From NCBI RefSeq assembly GCF_037971845.1, contig NZ_CP150227.1, positions 4,340,001 to 4,404,000 of the forward strand: DNA of 64,000 nt. Direction: 5' to 3'. Below are positions 6,098 through 49,801 of the stretch, in pieces; position 1 is the stretch's first letter; every line of letters begins with the position of its first letter. The notes under the pieces were generated by a model. The model was not told where the DNA came from and did no database searches. It saw only the letters and a program-made list of their open reading frames with translations. This stretch comes from Paenibacillus sp. FSL R5-0766 (GTDB lineage Bacteria > Bacillota > Bacilli > Paenibacillales > Paenibacillaceae). The position numbers and the translations under genes were made by a program.

Positions 6098-6164
6098 TTT
6101 ACAGGACAATAACCCCTTTGCATATGCCAACTTTCCATGGTATGTTATAAGAAATATTGAACGA

Positions 6165-6402
6165 AACGTGATGACGGGACCAGTAAGAGAATATCAGTCG
6201 CGCCCAGAGAGTAAATTCCACCCTGCTGAAAGAATTTACCGCGACTCTTCTCTGAAACCTACCCCTGAGCGGCCTGTTACGTACAGGACAGTGCCTTCTG
6301 TTACAGGGCATGAAGCCGGATGATCTAATCATCAATAAAGGTGGTACCGCGGAAGTAACGAACTTTCGTCCTTTTTAACTAAAGGGCGGGAGTTTTTTTT
6401 GT
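6165..6402 (+). promoter_or_regulatory. T-box leader, proline type, upstream of proBAC
   Basis: The conserved T-box sequence AAAGGTGGTACCGCGGAAG (6337-6355) is followed by an intrinsic terminator. Upstream is a stem I-like region starting with GGGACCAGTAAGAGA, whose AGAGA pairs with TCTCT at 6249-6253. The internal loop between this helix and GGG/CCC contains GAAACCTA, which offers the proline codon CCT at 6258-6260 as specifier. Uncharged tRNA-Pro would stabilise the antiterminator and allow transcription of proB and downstream genes. The specifier is my reading of the fold, and ACC (Thr) in the adjacent register is a less likely alternative. The 5' end is approximate. Confidence 0.92.
6361..6402 (+). 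terminator. T-box attenuator terminator
   Basis: A GC-rich stem (CGTCCTTT with AAAGGGCG, extended by AACT with AGTT) is followed by eight T residues. It lies immediately after the T-box sequence and forms the off-state of the leader. Confidence 0.9.
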
Positions 6403-45627: not shown

Positions 45628-46263
45628 CTATGCACTCGCACCTTGTTTGCGTTTATTCGTTGTTCGATGCATACGTCCAAGAGAAAATAACGCCATTCCT
45701 ATTGCAAGTAAAGAGAGGGCCATCCAATACTGCGGATAAGCAGGTCCCATGCTCACAACAAAAGGTTCTATGATACTTCCTCTGTCCGCTCCAGTCATGT
45801 TGTACTGATACATTCCAGAGGACGATGGTCCGCTTCCGGCAACCCCTGTCTCCAGAATACCCGTAGCAACAACCTTGGTTTGCTCAGCTTCTGATACGTC
45901 TGGCTTAAACATTGCCATATACAGAAAGCTGCATAAAAAAATAGCCAGGAACGCGGCGATCCACAAAGACATATGCTTGCGGATCACAGCAGAGAAACGA
46001 TTAACCTTTACCTCTTCCGGCAGAAGCCATGGAGACTCCGCGTAGATCCGGTCCATAACGTTACGGTTCACTCTCTCTGCCTGTTGTTCTGTCACTGGAA
46101 CCGGAATGCTGTGCAGCAAGATCTGAGCTTCTTCCCAGACCTCAAACTGCTCGGAGCACTCATCACAACCAGCGAGATGAGCATGAAATGCAATCCGCTG
46201 AGGATGAGTTTCCGGCAAGTCCCAGACCAGTGCAAACAGTTCCTGGGCTTCATTGCAATTCAT
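45628..46263 (-). CDS. Zinc-finger anti-sigma factor
   Basis: The 211-residue protein has an N-terminal anti-sigma zinc domain with the HxxxCxxC motif (HLAGCDEC, with an earlier cysteine at position 3 and histidine before it), followed by a linker. Two membrane helices follow (about SLWIAAFLAIFLCSFLYMAMF and YWMALSLLAIGMALFSLG). The outside region between them may sense the signal. It overlaps the ECF sigma gene by 4 bases, the usual arrangement for a sigma/anti-sigma pair. The inducing stress is not known. Confidence 0.9.
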   Translation of the reverse strand: MNCNEAQELFALVWDLPETHPQRIAFHAHLAGCDECSEQFEVWEEAQILLHSIPVPVTEQQAERVNRNVMDRIYAESPWLLPEEVKVNRFSAVIRKHMSLWIAAFLAIFLCSFLYMAMFKPDVSEAEQTKVVATGILETGVAGSGPSSSGMYQYNMTGADRGSIIEPFVVSMGPAYPQYWMALSLLAIGMALFSLGRMHRTTNKRKQGASA

Positions 46264-46853
46264 CGGTTCTTCATCCCTTCATATGGCTCGTACACCGGTT
46301 CGAAGAAATAAGGTTCCAATTGAGTTTTTACGCTTGATCTTGCTCTGAATAATAGCGATTTCACAGAACTGACGCTCTGCCCAAGAATATTCGCAATCTC
46401 TTGGTAGTCTAGTTGATCATACTCGCGGAGTATAATCGCAGAACGCTGCTTCTCCGGCAAATTGTTAATCGCATCCCTAACCAGCATCACCCGCTCGCTG
46501 CGTAGTACAGCATACTCCGGTGCATTCTCCGAAGGAGCAACGGGAACAATCCCGCTCTCTTCAAGTGGGACATTTCCGCTGCGCTGTTTGCGAAGCTCAC
46601 TCAGTACCGTATTTCTCGCAATGGTATATAACCAGGTTGAGAATGAGGCATCCACCTCACGGAAAGAGTGCAGACTGCGGAACGCCTTATAGAAAGTCTC
46701 AGAACAGAGATCTTCCGCAAGCAGCTCCATATTGGAACTTTTCAACATATGATATACGAAAGCCAGTATTTTACGCTGATAACGACTCATCAGCTCGGAA
46801 TATAACTCCAGGTTACCTTCCTTGATCTCTCGAATCAACTGGGAATCCGTCAT
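46260..46853 (-). CDS. ECF-family RNA polymerase sigma factor
   Basis: The 197-residue protein shows region 2 (ELYSELMSRYQRKILAFVYHML, EDLCSETFYKAFRSLHSF, STWLYTIARNTVLSELRKQR) and region 4 (LPEKQRSAIILREYDQLDYQEIANILGQSVSSVKSLLFRARSSVK). The start is ATG 46853, with AGGAGGGG 10 bases upstream. A longer frame of 19 residues starts within the ribosome-binding region. The zinc-finger anti-sigma gene overlaps its end. The group (SigW/SigV-like) is not certain. Confidence 0.92.
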   Translation of the reverse strand: MTDSQLIREIKEGNLELYSELMSRYQRKILAFVYHMLKSSNMELLAEDLCSETFYKAFRSLHSFREVDASFSTWLYTIARNTVLSELRKQRSGNVPLEESGIVPVAPSENAPEYAVLRSERVMLVRDAINNLPEKQRSAIILREYDQLDYQEIANILGQSVSSVKSLLFRARSSVKTQLEPYFFEPVYEPYEGMKNR

Positions 46854-46910
46854 TTGAGTGCGACCCCTCCTCGCCCATCCATGTGCTTCTCCCCGTTCGA
46901 CTCTATCCAT

Positions 46911-47321
46911 GTATTACCGAACAGGCACAAAAAAGTTGCGGTTCTCACCGCATATAAAAAGCGTTCAGCGCCATAACTGGCCTTCCCGCCAAATTCCCCT
47001 ATGTAATGGCAATTTCCCCAACGTTTCTACATTAACAGTATTTATTGTACAACGGTCTGCATCATCCTGGCAAATCCATTGGCATCCGCAAAACCCGACC
47101 TGTCATTCATATGCGGTCATTTTCACGTTCATGACTTCATTTTGAGCCTTTTTGGTAACCCTTGCTTATATAGACGGACGATATACTGAAAAGGTTACAA
47201 AAATGTGATATTTATTGGATCTAAGGTATCCTAACAGATTAAGGAGGGAGATGTAAATAGAGGATGTAAGTTCAAATGTAACTATTAACATATCAATGCC
47301 TTTCCCATAACTTTTTAAGAC
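46911..47321. other. Gene-free stretch upstream of the ECF sigma gene
   Basis: No protein gene is supported here. On the minus strand two copies of a GGGGAA(A/T)TT(G/T) motif lie 21 bases apart near 47001-47024, upstream of the sigma gene, and could be a regulatory site. On the plus strand a perfect AAGGAGGGAG is followed at once by ATG-TAA at 47251-47256, and two more ATG-TAA pairs follow at 47264 and 47276. Confidence 0.5.
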
Positions 47322-47350
47322 AAAAAAAAGACCGCTTACATAAGCGGCCA
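47322..47350 (-). terminator. Terminator of the candidate small RNA
   Basis: A 9-bp stem (GGCCGCTTA with TAAGCGGTC) is followed by eight T residues on the minus strand. No protein gene ends before it, which is the main hint that it serves a non-coding transcript. Confidence 0.88.
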
Positions 47351-47407
47351 TTGCTCACGTGGAGCAATACAGTTATTGGATAGGAGTGGAGAGAAACCAT
47401 ACTGTAC
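47322..47407 (-). ncRNA. Candidate small RNA with its own promoter and terminator
   Basis: A roughly 85-base transcript is predicted. It starts near 47405-47407 after a consensus promoter and ends in an intrinsic terminator. The fold shows three elements: a 5' stem UACAGU/ACUGUA (47406-47401 with 47373-47368) closing a 27-base loop that contains the pyrimidine-rich UUUCUCUCCACUCCUAUCC; a perfect 7-bp hairpin (47350-47368); and the terminator stem. The CU-rich single strand could pair with Shine-Dalgarno sequences. No known family is recognised. Confidence 0.75.
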
Positions 47408-47411
47408 CCTT

Positions 47412-47440
47412 ATTATATGTATACGTTTTCATTTTGTCAA
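47412..47440 (-). promoter_or_regulatory. Consensus sigma-A promoter of the candidate small RNA
   Basis: TTGACA (47440-47435) and TATAAT (47417-47412) are both perfect consensus hexamers, separated by exactly 17 bases. A promoter of this quality without a downstream gene within 80 bases implies a strongly expressed short RNA. Confidence 0.9.
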
Positions 47441-47549
47441 CACTTTCAGTAAAATTGTTTGAATTAATTATATCTTTCGGTAAATCAGGATAATACATCC
47501 TTTTTTTGTGTGACTGAAAATCAAATAACAACTCCAATATAACCTCACA

Positions 47550-47573
47550 AAAAAGAGGGCTTTCGCCCTCTTT
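47550..47573 (-). terminator. Intrinsic terminator of the trp-hisC-tyrA operon
   Basis: AAGAGGGC pairs with GCCCTCTT around a GAAA tetraloop and is followed by six T residues, just after the tyrA stop codon. Confidence 0.92.
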
Positions 47574-47579
47574 CTCGTC

Positions 47580-48674
47580 TTATATCCACACTTGATAGCC
47601 TAAGGAATCCAATAACGTCTTGGCTCGTTCCATATCTTCTTCCTGACGGAAAGACAGACGCATAATGCCCGGCACATCCACCCGGTTTTCGATAATCTCC
47701 AAGTTGCTCAAGTTGATATCATTCGCCCCAAGCTCAGTTGCAATCTTACCGATCATACCCGGTGCATCCTGAACATCAGTATATAGATCAAATAACGGCG
47801 AAATCATGCCTTTGCGTCGTTCTGGTAATATACTGCGGAACTCGCGGGCCTGACGGAATGCCTCCTCTATACCTTCACCGTTCTTATGTTCCAGCATATC
47901 CGTAAAGGCCGTCATCTGGCTATTCCAGTCCTTAAGCAAGCCCAGCAGTACATCACGGTTGCTAAGCAAGATATCTCTCCACACAATCGCATCACTGGAC
48001 GCAATCCGGGTAATATCCCGAAAACCGCCTGCAGCCAGCATTTTATACAGTGGATTCGACTCATTATATTCACGTACCTGATTCACCAGCGCAACAGCAA
48101 TAACATGTGGCAGATGACTAATCGCCCCCACGATGTCATCGTGCAGCAGAGGCTCCACACGCACGATCTGTGCCCGCGTATACGCAAGCAGCTCAGACAA
48201 CCTGCTGTAGGCTTCCTCAGGTACATGTTCTGAAGGGGTTAAGACATAGTATGCATTCTCAAATAACACGGCTGAGGCCGCATCTACGCCTGCACGCTCC
48301 GACCCCGCCATAGGGTGACCACCAATGAAGTAAGCGTCAGTCAACCGCACATGCTCGGCACAAGCGGCAATGGAAGCTTTAGTGCTTCCTACGTCCGTGA
48401 TGATACATCCTTTTTTCAATGGCAGCTTGGAGAGCTTTTCAAAATAGGATTCAAGCAAACCTACGGGAACGCACAAAAAAATAAAGTCGGCATCCTCTAC
48501 CGCTTCTTCCAGAGAGAGCGTAGCATCATCCACTACACCGCTCGCTATGTACTTGTCCTTCAGTTCATCCAAGTGGGCGTAGCCCATCACGGTTACATCT
48601 GGCTTGCCTTTGAAGCAGAGCGCCAGTGAACCGCCGATGAGTCCTACACCAATCATTGCAATTTTTAGTTTCAT
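47580..48674 (-). CDS. tyrA: Prephenate dehydrogenase
   Basis: TyrA oxidises prephenate to 4-hydroxyphenylpyruvate for tyrosine. The 364-residue protein opens with the Rossmann motif IAMIGVGLIGGSLALCFKG. TyrA motifs include IITDVGSTKASI, FIGGHPMAGSERAGVDAA and AISHLPHVIAVALVNQV. A C-terminal ACT domain (about 290-364, APGMIGKIATELGANDINLSNLEIIE) suggests feedback control by tyrosine or another amino acid. It is the last gene of the trp supercluster and is followed by a terminator. Confidence 0.96.
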   Translation of the reverse strand: MKLKIAMIGVGLIGGSLALCFKGKPDVTVMGYAHLDELKDKYIASGVVDDATLSLEEAVEDADFIFLCVPVGLLESYFEKLSKLPLKKGCIITDVGSTKASIAACAEHVRLTDAYFIGGHPMAGSERAGVDAASAVLFENAYYVLTPSEHVPEEAYSRLSELLAYTRAQIVRVEPLLHDDIVGAISHLPHVIAVALVNQVREYNESNPLYKMLAAGGFRDITRIASSDAIVWRDILLSNRDVLLGLLKDWNSQMTAFTDMLEHKNGEGIEEAFRQAREFRSILPERRKGMISPLFDLYTDVQDAPGMIGKIATELGANDINLSNLEIIENRVDVPGIMRLSFRQEEDMERAKTLLDSLGYQVWI

Positions 48675-48700
48675 GGGTCCTCACTCTTTCATCGCCAGTA

Positions 48701-49801
48701 TTAAGGGCGTGCTACCGCCTTCTCAGCCAGCGTGTTCTCCAGTGCCGTGACAAATGCACGGTTCTGTTCTGATGTTCCGACGGACACACGAATGTAAGTT
48801 GGGTATACGTGGAATCCTGAGCGAACGATAATGCCTTGTTTGAGCAAGGATTGGAACGCAATTGCCGAAGGCATATTCAGGTCAACCATAATGAAATTAC
48901 CCTGTGAAGGGAAATACGACAATCCGAGCCGTGTAAATTCATTTTGCAGGTAATCCCGATCCGTTGCATTCCGCTTCGAGCACTCTTGAACAAAATCCTG
49001 ATCCAGTAGTGCAGCGGTTGCCGCAACCTGTCCAAAACGGGAGGTGTTAAACGGTTCACGTACACGGTTAATCAAATCAATAATTTCGGGACGTGCAATA
49101 CCATATCCGATCCGAAGCGAAGCCAAACCGTAAATTTTGGAGAATGTCCGCAGGATGACCAAGTTCGGATACCGTTCGATCAATGGTATACTTTGCGGGT
49201 ATGCTTCATCGGTTACGAATTCATAATAAGCTTCGTCCAGTATGACCATCACATGAGCAGGCACACGGTCCATAAAGGCTGTAAGTTCCTGCTCGGAGAT
49301 AATCGTACCTGTCGGATTATTTGGATTACACACCCATACTGCTTTGGTTTTGTCGTTAATTTGCGCGAGCATCGCGCTCAGATCATGCGTGCCATTTTTC
49401 AGAGGCACTTCGATGGACACGGCACCCTCAATATCTGCATTGCTTTTATATACAGAAAATGTCTGATCTGCCATGATGGTCTCGTCACCCGGCAAGAAGA
49501 AAGCTCTTGTGATCAAAGCAATAATCTCATCGGAACCACAACCAAATATTAAGTTGTTCCGTTCAACGCCAAGATGCTTGGCAAGAACTCCCGTCAGCTC
49601 AACCGAGCTACCATCTGGGTATATGCTTATATTAGTCATTTCTTTCGTAATGGCTTCCAGAGCGGCAGGAGAACTGCCGTACGGGTTTTCGTTGGAGGCC
49701 AGCTTGATGACTTGTTCAAGCCCCAGTTCACGTTTCACTTCTTCAATCGGTTTGCCCGGCTGGTACACAGGCAGATTGACAATCTGGGATTTCGGTTTCA
49801 A
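48701..49801 (-). CDS. hisC: Histidinol-phosphate aminotransferase
   Basis: HisC transaminates imidazole-acetol phosphate in histidine synthesis. In Bacillus the same enzyme also serves tyrosine and phenylalanine synthesis, which explains its position between trpA and tyrA. The 366-residue PLP enzyme has KLASNENPYGSSP, VWVCNPNNPTGTI, DEAYYEFV and the PLP lysine in ILRTFSKIYGLASLRIGYG. The start is TTG with AGGAGG 8 bases upstream. A hairpin between trpA and hisC may modulate its expression. Confidence 0.95.
   Translation of the reverse strand: MKPKSQIVNLPVYQPGKPIEEVKRELGLEQVIKLASNENPYGSSPAALEAITKEMTNISIYPDGSSVELTGVLAKHLGVERNNLIFGCGSDEIIALITRAFFLPGDETIMADQTFSVYKSNADIEGAVSIEVPLKNGTHDLSAMLAQINDKTKAVWVCNPNNPTGTIISEQELTAFMDRVPAHVMVILDEAYYEFVTDEAYPQSIPLIERYPNLVILRTFSKIYGLASLRIGYGIARPEIIDLINRVREPFNTSRFGQVAATAALLDQDFVQECSKRNATDRDYLQNEFTRLGLSYFPSQGNFIMVDLNMPSAIAFQSLLKQGIIVRSGFHVYPTYIRVSVGTSEQNRAFVTALENTLAEKAVARP

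Follow-up and report, generated by a model that had tools for sequence, protein, structure and literature searches.

A predicted CU-rich small RNA gene of the Bacilli with a likely CcpA-type operator at its promoter

In the window (the whole 64,000-nt stretch of Paenibacillus sp. FSL R5-0766 DNA analyzed here), minus-strand positions 47322-47440 begin with a perfect promoter of the sigma-A type; a CU-rich loop of 17 bases, a 7-bp hairpin, and finally a terminator follow (Table 1). We consider it probable, with moderate confidence, that this locus is an independent small RNA (sRNA) gene found across much of the Bacilli, likely repressed by CcpA and acting in trans on Shine-Dalgarno (SD) regions of metabolic mRNAs. 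While a preferred sugar is present, CcpA would repress the sRNA promoter; upon release from CcpA, the sRNA would be transcribed, and its loop would pair in trans with the SD regions of metabolic mRNAs, and it would fill a RoxS/RsaE-like role where RoxS/RsaE is missing. The promoter, loop, hairpins, and terminator, as well as their conservation, can be read from the sequence itself. The initial annotation had placed the sRNA between a sigma/anti-sigma pair and tyrA, and Pfam matches of the neighboring genes bore this out. A T-box leader (RF00230, 94.3 bits) is also present in the window, at 6162-6376 (+).

Table 1. Features of the predicted sRNA locus and its neighbors, in window coordinates.
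Feature	Position	Strand	Basis or remark
-35 box TTGACA	47435..47440	(-)	promoter search
TGAAAACGTATACA, a cre-like CcpA operator that fills the spacer of the promoter	47418..47431	(-)	letters and cre statistics
-10 box TATAAT	47412..47417	(-)	promoter search
predicted sRNA, ~84 nt	47322..47405	(-)	fold and conservation; 5' end placed from the position of the -10 box
class-wide 24-base core GTATGGTTTCTCTCCACTCCTATC	47379..47402	(-)	<=3 mismatches in 166/398 Bacilli genomes
17-nt unpaired CU-rich loop TTTCTCTCCACTCCTAT, likely seed	47380..47396	(-)	unpaired in fold
7-bp hairpin, differing from genus to genus	47350..47368	(-)	fold and order/class comparison
intrinsic terminator: 8-bp stem, 4-nt loop, eight T	47322..47349	(-)	promoter/terminator search and fold
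tyrA	47580-48674		one flank of the sRNA locus
ECF sigma gene	46260-46910		other flank of the sRNA; Pfam
putative zinc-finger anti-sigma gene	45628-46263		paired with the ECF sigma gene; Pfam, zinc-finger match slightly under the cut-off

The promoter first described as TTGACA, 17 bases, and TATAAT was confirmed as a 12/12 match at 47440-47412 (-), and it is unique at that grade among the seven promoter-like sites of any grade in 46000-49000 (4.6 expected by shuffling). Positions 47405-47322 fold with -24.4 kcal/mol, compared to a shuffled mean of -13.05 (z -4.5), and none of 200 shuffles reaches this stability. In the predicted structure, a short closing stem presents a 17-nt unpaired loop (UUUCUCUCCACUCCUAU) and is followed first by the 7-bp hairpin and then by the terminator. 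The core's complement, AGGAGTGGAGAGAAACCAT, is laid out like an SD sequence, spacer, and start codon. The loop, the 7-bp hairpin, and the eight T residues noted at the outset all agree with the letters and the fold, but the terminator stem comprises 8 bp (5 of them G-C pairs) instead of the 9 bp originally given. The 5' stem, described earlier as UACAGU/ACUGUA, holds as a local form, although the fold resolves it into ACAGU/ACUGU plus UGG/CCA and not into one 6-bp helix, and the form seen more widely is GUAUGG paired onto CC(A)UAY-type letters.

Conservation in related genomes had been proposed as a check, and promoter, loop, and terminator were found to be kept in 59 genomes of the order. A 181-base BLAST query matched 59/59 order genomes and 17/17 genera, which excludes a chance origin of the locus; beyond close relatives, the match was often reduced to the promoter and core (query 41-103). 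When the loci of the order were read out, the promoter-to-loop stretch, -35 box and whole loop included, was largely kept and the 3' hairpins varied by genus. At the level of the class, we used a sample of 398 genomes taken evenly over the Bacilli. With up to 3 mismatches, the 24-mer GTATGGTTTCTCTCCACTCCTATC was found in 166 of these genomes and in 70 of 145 genera, whereas its reversed control gave a single match in the 398 genomes; a 75-base BLAST query matched 175/398, some of these being weak, promoter-only matches, and a scan of named genomes for the core returned at least 118 stretches, 80 of them listed under a name. Among the matches listed are Paenibacillus, Cohnella, Saccharibacillus, Brevibacillus, Aneurinibacillus, Shouchella, Halalkalibacter, Alkalihalobacterium, Pseudalkalibacillus, Alteribacillus, Marinococcus, Geomicrobium, Caldalkalibacillus, Melghirimyces, and Thermoactinomyces. 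Some genomes carry two copies of the core (family f37 and the Brevibacillus family, f32/g62). As a separate observation, the two copies in one genome (G293; L101, L102), like those in the f37 genomes, differ in their promoters and 3' parts, and a group of loci from family f16 (L236-L242) shows a divergent form, GTCTGATTTCTCTCCACTCCTAGC, in which the inner loop letters are kept and the closing stem is changed.

Across 96 dereplicated loci (of 255), the best-fit promoter had 0 mismatches of 12 in 51, 1 in 29, 2 in 12, and 3 in 4. The loop reads TTTCTCTCCACTCCTATC in 89 of the 96, a count inflated by the fact that the loci were chosen by an anchor within the loop. Letters of the CC(A)UAY type 3' of the loop are possible pairing partners for the GUAUGG 5' of it: at least five closing pairs were obtained in 58 of 70 representatives, compared to 33% with shuffled 3' arms, and the closing pair was absent in 9 of the 70. 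Such pairing does not amount to covariation, since the GUAUGG arm is nearly invariant. Of the 70 representatives, 55 have two hairpins in the 3' part and 14 have one, and the median fold z of this part is -4.36; thus, the 3' hairpins are rewritten and yet stable while the loop letters stay fixed.

The locus also appears to be independent of its neighbors. Among the matches listed, the sRNA of Paenibacillaceae lies mostly between tyrA and the sigma gene, and elsewhere it is often found 3' of a tyrA-like gene plus a ~430-aa ORF, or among other genes. A segment of ~200-250 bp (estimated by eye) that contains the sRNA together with its promoter has opposite orientations in L001 and in L005, L007, and L008, with the neighbors unchanged, in species whose sRNA regions are 98-99% identical. 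In window coordinates this segment lies at about 47270-47520. Its orientation differs among close Paenibacillus species (L001 vs L005, L007, L008, L011), a pattern that suggests local inversion on repeated occasions. Because inverted copies sit between the same neighbors, the sRNA need not rely on tyrA read-through or lead into the sigma gene. The original designation of an independent sRNA gene is therefore well supported by sequence, through the promoter, loop, and terminator in the 59 order genomes, the core, promoter, and 3' hairpins class-wide, and the inverted copies. As expected of a trans-acting intergenic sRNA, the locus has its own promoter and its own terminator (from sequence, fold, and inverted copies) and a conserved, unpaired, non-coding seed. 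A mobile origin was considered and rejected: the exact 21-base core was absent from viral contigs, and no match was found in phages or plasmids.

The catabolite-responsive element (cre) has the consensus TGNAANCGNWNNCA. The promoter spacer, TGAAAACGTATACA, matches this consensus perfectly, a feature that the initial annotation did not mention, and with a CcpA-type operator as the spacer, any high expression of the sRNA would depend on conditions. We searched for cre-like sites in 86 dereplicated loci (from 253), covering the 81 upstream bases and the 3' part of each, with expectations from dinucleotide shuffles. A perfect site was present in 49 of the 86 loci (0.2 expected), and a site with at most 1 mismatch in 71 (4.5 expected), counts that overstate the number of events since related loci are not independent. 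The place of the site varies by clade: it fills the spacer in Paenibacillales, lies over the -35 box in Marinococcus and f33, and falls within the terminator hairpin in Brevibacillus, Halalkalibacter, Shouchella, and Geomicrobium (L159, L136, L143, L150, L262), and this movement between clades argues that the operator itself is kept. In the same 86-locus search, cre-like sites were absent from the Aneurinibacillus family, f27, f40/f41, and some others. The sRNA thus has a cre site placed to act on its promoter, as expected of the CcpA regulon, and a site so placed, within the spacer or across the -35 box, makes binding and repression by CcpA likely. Separately, two promoter spacers (L096, L122) and one further locus (L291), from f29, f42, and Caldalkalibacillus, contain (A)GTGGAGAG-type letters complementary to the sRNA's own core.

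The earlier statement that the RNA matches no known family holds for Rfam 15. No match was found at the locus at the gathering cut-off, and in a permissive scan the matches to Arrc14, Plastid-atpF, ylbH, BjrC1505, TarA, snR96, Trp_leader, STnc560, and suhB were all far below threshold and were rejected. In the literature, searches of titles and abstract openings and of open-licence text, with Paenibacillus/Brevibacillus sRNA terms and core strings, returned no description of the RNA. Judged by Rfam 15 and the literature searched, the sRNA family appears to be new, and its CU-rich, trans-acting kind is known. A close comparison is RsaE/RoxS (RF01820), whose C-rich regions pair with SD sequences (PMC4409812). 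Like RsaE/RoxS, the new RNA has its own gene and an unpaired core that begins with UUUCUC followed by C-rich letters (the RsaE core being UUUCUCCCAUCCCC), but its loop, closing stem, and locus are different, and the RF01820 model gave no match in the window at its cut-off, nor around the locus at E up to 5. RsaE/RoxS is described as being under ResDE/SrrAB and Rex (PMC4409812, PMC8216469), whereas the new RNA has a cre-like operator.

RF01820 was found in 112 of the 398 class genomes, 82 of them over the cut-off, in a scan with stricter filters that lost weak matches and detected the B. subtilis control. According to the two lists, compared by eye, none of the 398 genomes contains both the new core and RF01820, no family code is common to both, and 120 genomes have neither. 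This exclusivity follows family lines, and phylogeny contributes strongly to it and may do so alone.

Three other sRNAs invite comparison. CsfG, encoded on the opposite strand of the RF00516 'ylbH leader', resembles the new RNA in being widely conserved and in its CU-rich conserved loop (GGUUUCUCCUCUCCC in CsfG vs GGUUUCUCUCCACUCC here), but it occupies a separate locus in the same genome (G000 2403264-2403358, L441; RF00516 68.5 bits), and the RF00516 score at the new locus is 17.8 bits against a cut-off of 50. RF00516 was present in 8 of 10 genomes tested, comprising 6/6 with the new RNA and 2/4 with RsaE. Unlike the new RNA, CsfG is under sigma F and G in the B. subtilis forespore; it increases after glucose exhaustion, and RoxS, FsrA, and CsfG have been grouped as C-rich sRNAs with possibly overlapping targets (PMC8216469). 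RsaI of Staphylococcus aureus is a known CcpA-repressed, SD-blocking sRNA; it is repressed by CcpA in glucose, as is proposed for the new RNA, and pairs with the SD sequences of glcU_2 and fn3K (PMC9266662). RsaI and the new RNA, set side by side by description, would follow the same logic, and common descent is unsupported. RosA of Bacillus subtilis is likewise a CcpA-repressed sRNA (PMC8216469), but it is a sponge of RoxS, whereas the new RNA has a CU-rich sequence of its own and was seen in no genome in which RsaE/RoxS was found.

The proposal that the CU-rich loop blocks SD sequences is plausible and is the best-supported reading of its function, with one partly conserved candidate target found outside Paenibacillus; sites at pyk and tkt proved not to be conserved, and a class-wide 12-mer gave no clear enrichment. 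In 20 genomes, AGGAGTGGAGA had 88 matches (sRNA copies included) compared to 36 for the reversed pattern, and at 34 of the 68 sites outside the sRNA core a start codon lies 10-17 nt on, opening a frame of at least 40 aa. By a reading of their N-terminal letters, the genes that follow these sites resemble transketolase, transaldolase, a pyruvate kinase, hexulose-phosphate synthase, PTS EIIA, and amino-acid and sulfur genes. As conserved targets, pyk and tkt were both rejected: a score of at least 27 was reached in 2 of 30 pyk leaders (G040, where the site was first seen, and G059), with the G040 gene being a second copy and most loci compared being the other pyk, and in one tkt leader out of 29, that of G211, in which the site had first been noticed. 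The 12-mer TAGGAGTGGAGA followed by ATG within 8 nt occurred at 49 distinct sites, of which the 166 sRNA-bearing genomes account for 30 and the 232 others for 19. As the sRNA-bearing genomes are larger, this is no clear enrichment; the reversed pattern gave about a dozen matches. For GAGAAACCATG, 54 matches were counted in 20 genomes (27 for the reversed pattern), and 17 of the 52 contexts read head a frame of at least 100 aa; an MFS transporter recurs in two genera, and one site in the present genome precedes a beta-glucosidase-like frame. An MFS transporter gene from two genera of the family (L457, L470) begins GGAGAGAAACCATGC, which can pair with the sRNA core along 15 nt (one G-U) that span the SD sequence and start codon.

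Acyl-CoA dehydrogenase genes recur among the core-complementary sites, and the one in Aneurinibacillus relatives is the best target candidate. Within this family, one of two tandem copies has a ribosome-binding site (RBS) that reads approximately AGGAGTGG(A/G)GAGAA-ATG in 10/10 sRNA-bearing genomes; this RBS scores 27-42 in all ten, compared to 13 in the one sampled relative without the sRNA (G138), and some of its A-to-G changes remain pairable as G-U. Scores of at least 27 were reached by 1.3% of 977 background RBS windows and by 1 of 54 in Aneurinibacillus-family loci. Compared by family, in an analysis for which the gene was picked after matches had been seen, mean RBS scores were 20.1 in the sRNA-bearing group (n=23) and 15.9 in the other (n=13; p=0.015, or p=0.037 minus the Aneurinibacillus family), and 1 of 300 shuffled cores equaled the real core. 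With the RsaE core (p=0.82) or the CsfG core (p=0.26), the two groups did not differ at this RBS, and the 'new minus RsaE' difference gave p=0.0018. At least seven sRNA-bearing families score 11-16 at the site, and one genome without the sRNA (G290) scores 31. At 1e-90, the gene had no match in 10 of 11 order genomes, this Paenibacillus (G000) among them. These letters suggest that the sRNA may touch fatty-acid oxidation in some lineages, with Paenibacillus outside the reach of this lead.

The 17-nt loop is almost unchanged class-wide, which is more than one SD seed requires, and the pyk, tkt, and 12-mer tests revealed no class-wide conserved target. Both points would fit an RNA whose frozen loop serves mainly as a protein-binding site or decoy that titrates Hfq, a KH protein, or another, with pairing being secondary, and CsfG, which has conserved CU-rich loops, does co-purify with Hfq in B. 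subtilis (PMC3574147). We nevertheless consider this unlikely, given that the core complement has the layout of a ribosome-binding site and that one RBS, that of acyl-CoA dehydrogenase, tracks the presence of the sRNA. Less likely by a clear step is that the RNA is a sponge or partner of another sRNA, in which case CcpA control would act on that partner: although RosA, a CcpA-repressed RNA that binds RoxS and FsrA in B. subtilis (PMC8216469), offers a precedent, RsaE/RoxS occurs in 0/166 core-bearing genomes, and the loop of the new RNA is itself CU-rich.

Least credible, to the point of being very improbable, is that the locus encodes a small ORF or is a leader or attenuator of a neighboring gene. 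The initial annotation held that no open frame fits here, and indeed none closes inside, but a frame from the ATG in GTATGG passes through the terminator. In 36 of 70 representatives, the frame from this core ATG passes the terminator without a stop, as a coding reading would allow; in 32 the frames stop at many different points, and 2 have no such ATG. Since these frames end variably or stay open, selection appears to act on the RNA letters and not on a peptide, and the fixed letters include codon third positions; a small ORF or leader peptide was rejected on both grounds. A cis-acting role on tyrA or on the sigma gene, as leader or attenuator, was likewise rejected, as both the orientation of the sRNA and its neighbors vary between genomes. 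A trans-acting, SD-pairing sRNA remains the explanation that we prefer.

To our knowledge, few trans-acting sRNAs of the Firmicutes are widely conserved. The new RNA occurs in more of the sampled class than RsaE (166/398 vs 112/398) and carries its own likely CcpA switch. RsaE has been described as the only trans-acting sRNA besides 6S that is common to S. aureus and B. subtilis (PMC4409812). It is tempting, if doubtful, to picture the Bacilli as split between two interchangeable master metabolic sRNAs, RoxS/RsaE and a CcpA-wired RNA, with the RBSs of shared targets (e.g., acyl-CoA dehydrogenase) rewritten to match; our estimate of this possibility is slightly lowered because the RsaE core scores no higher at the candidate site in RsaE-bearing lineages. 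If true, RNA-level carbon control without RoxS in Paenibacillus, Brevibacillus, Aneurinibacillus, and related lineages would become a testable question, and so would whether an sRNA and its target sites change together when one master sRNA replaces another.
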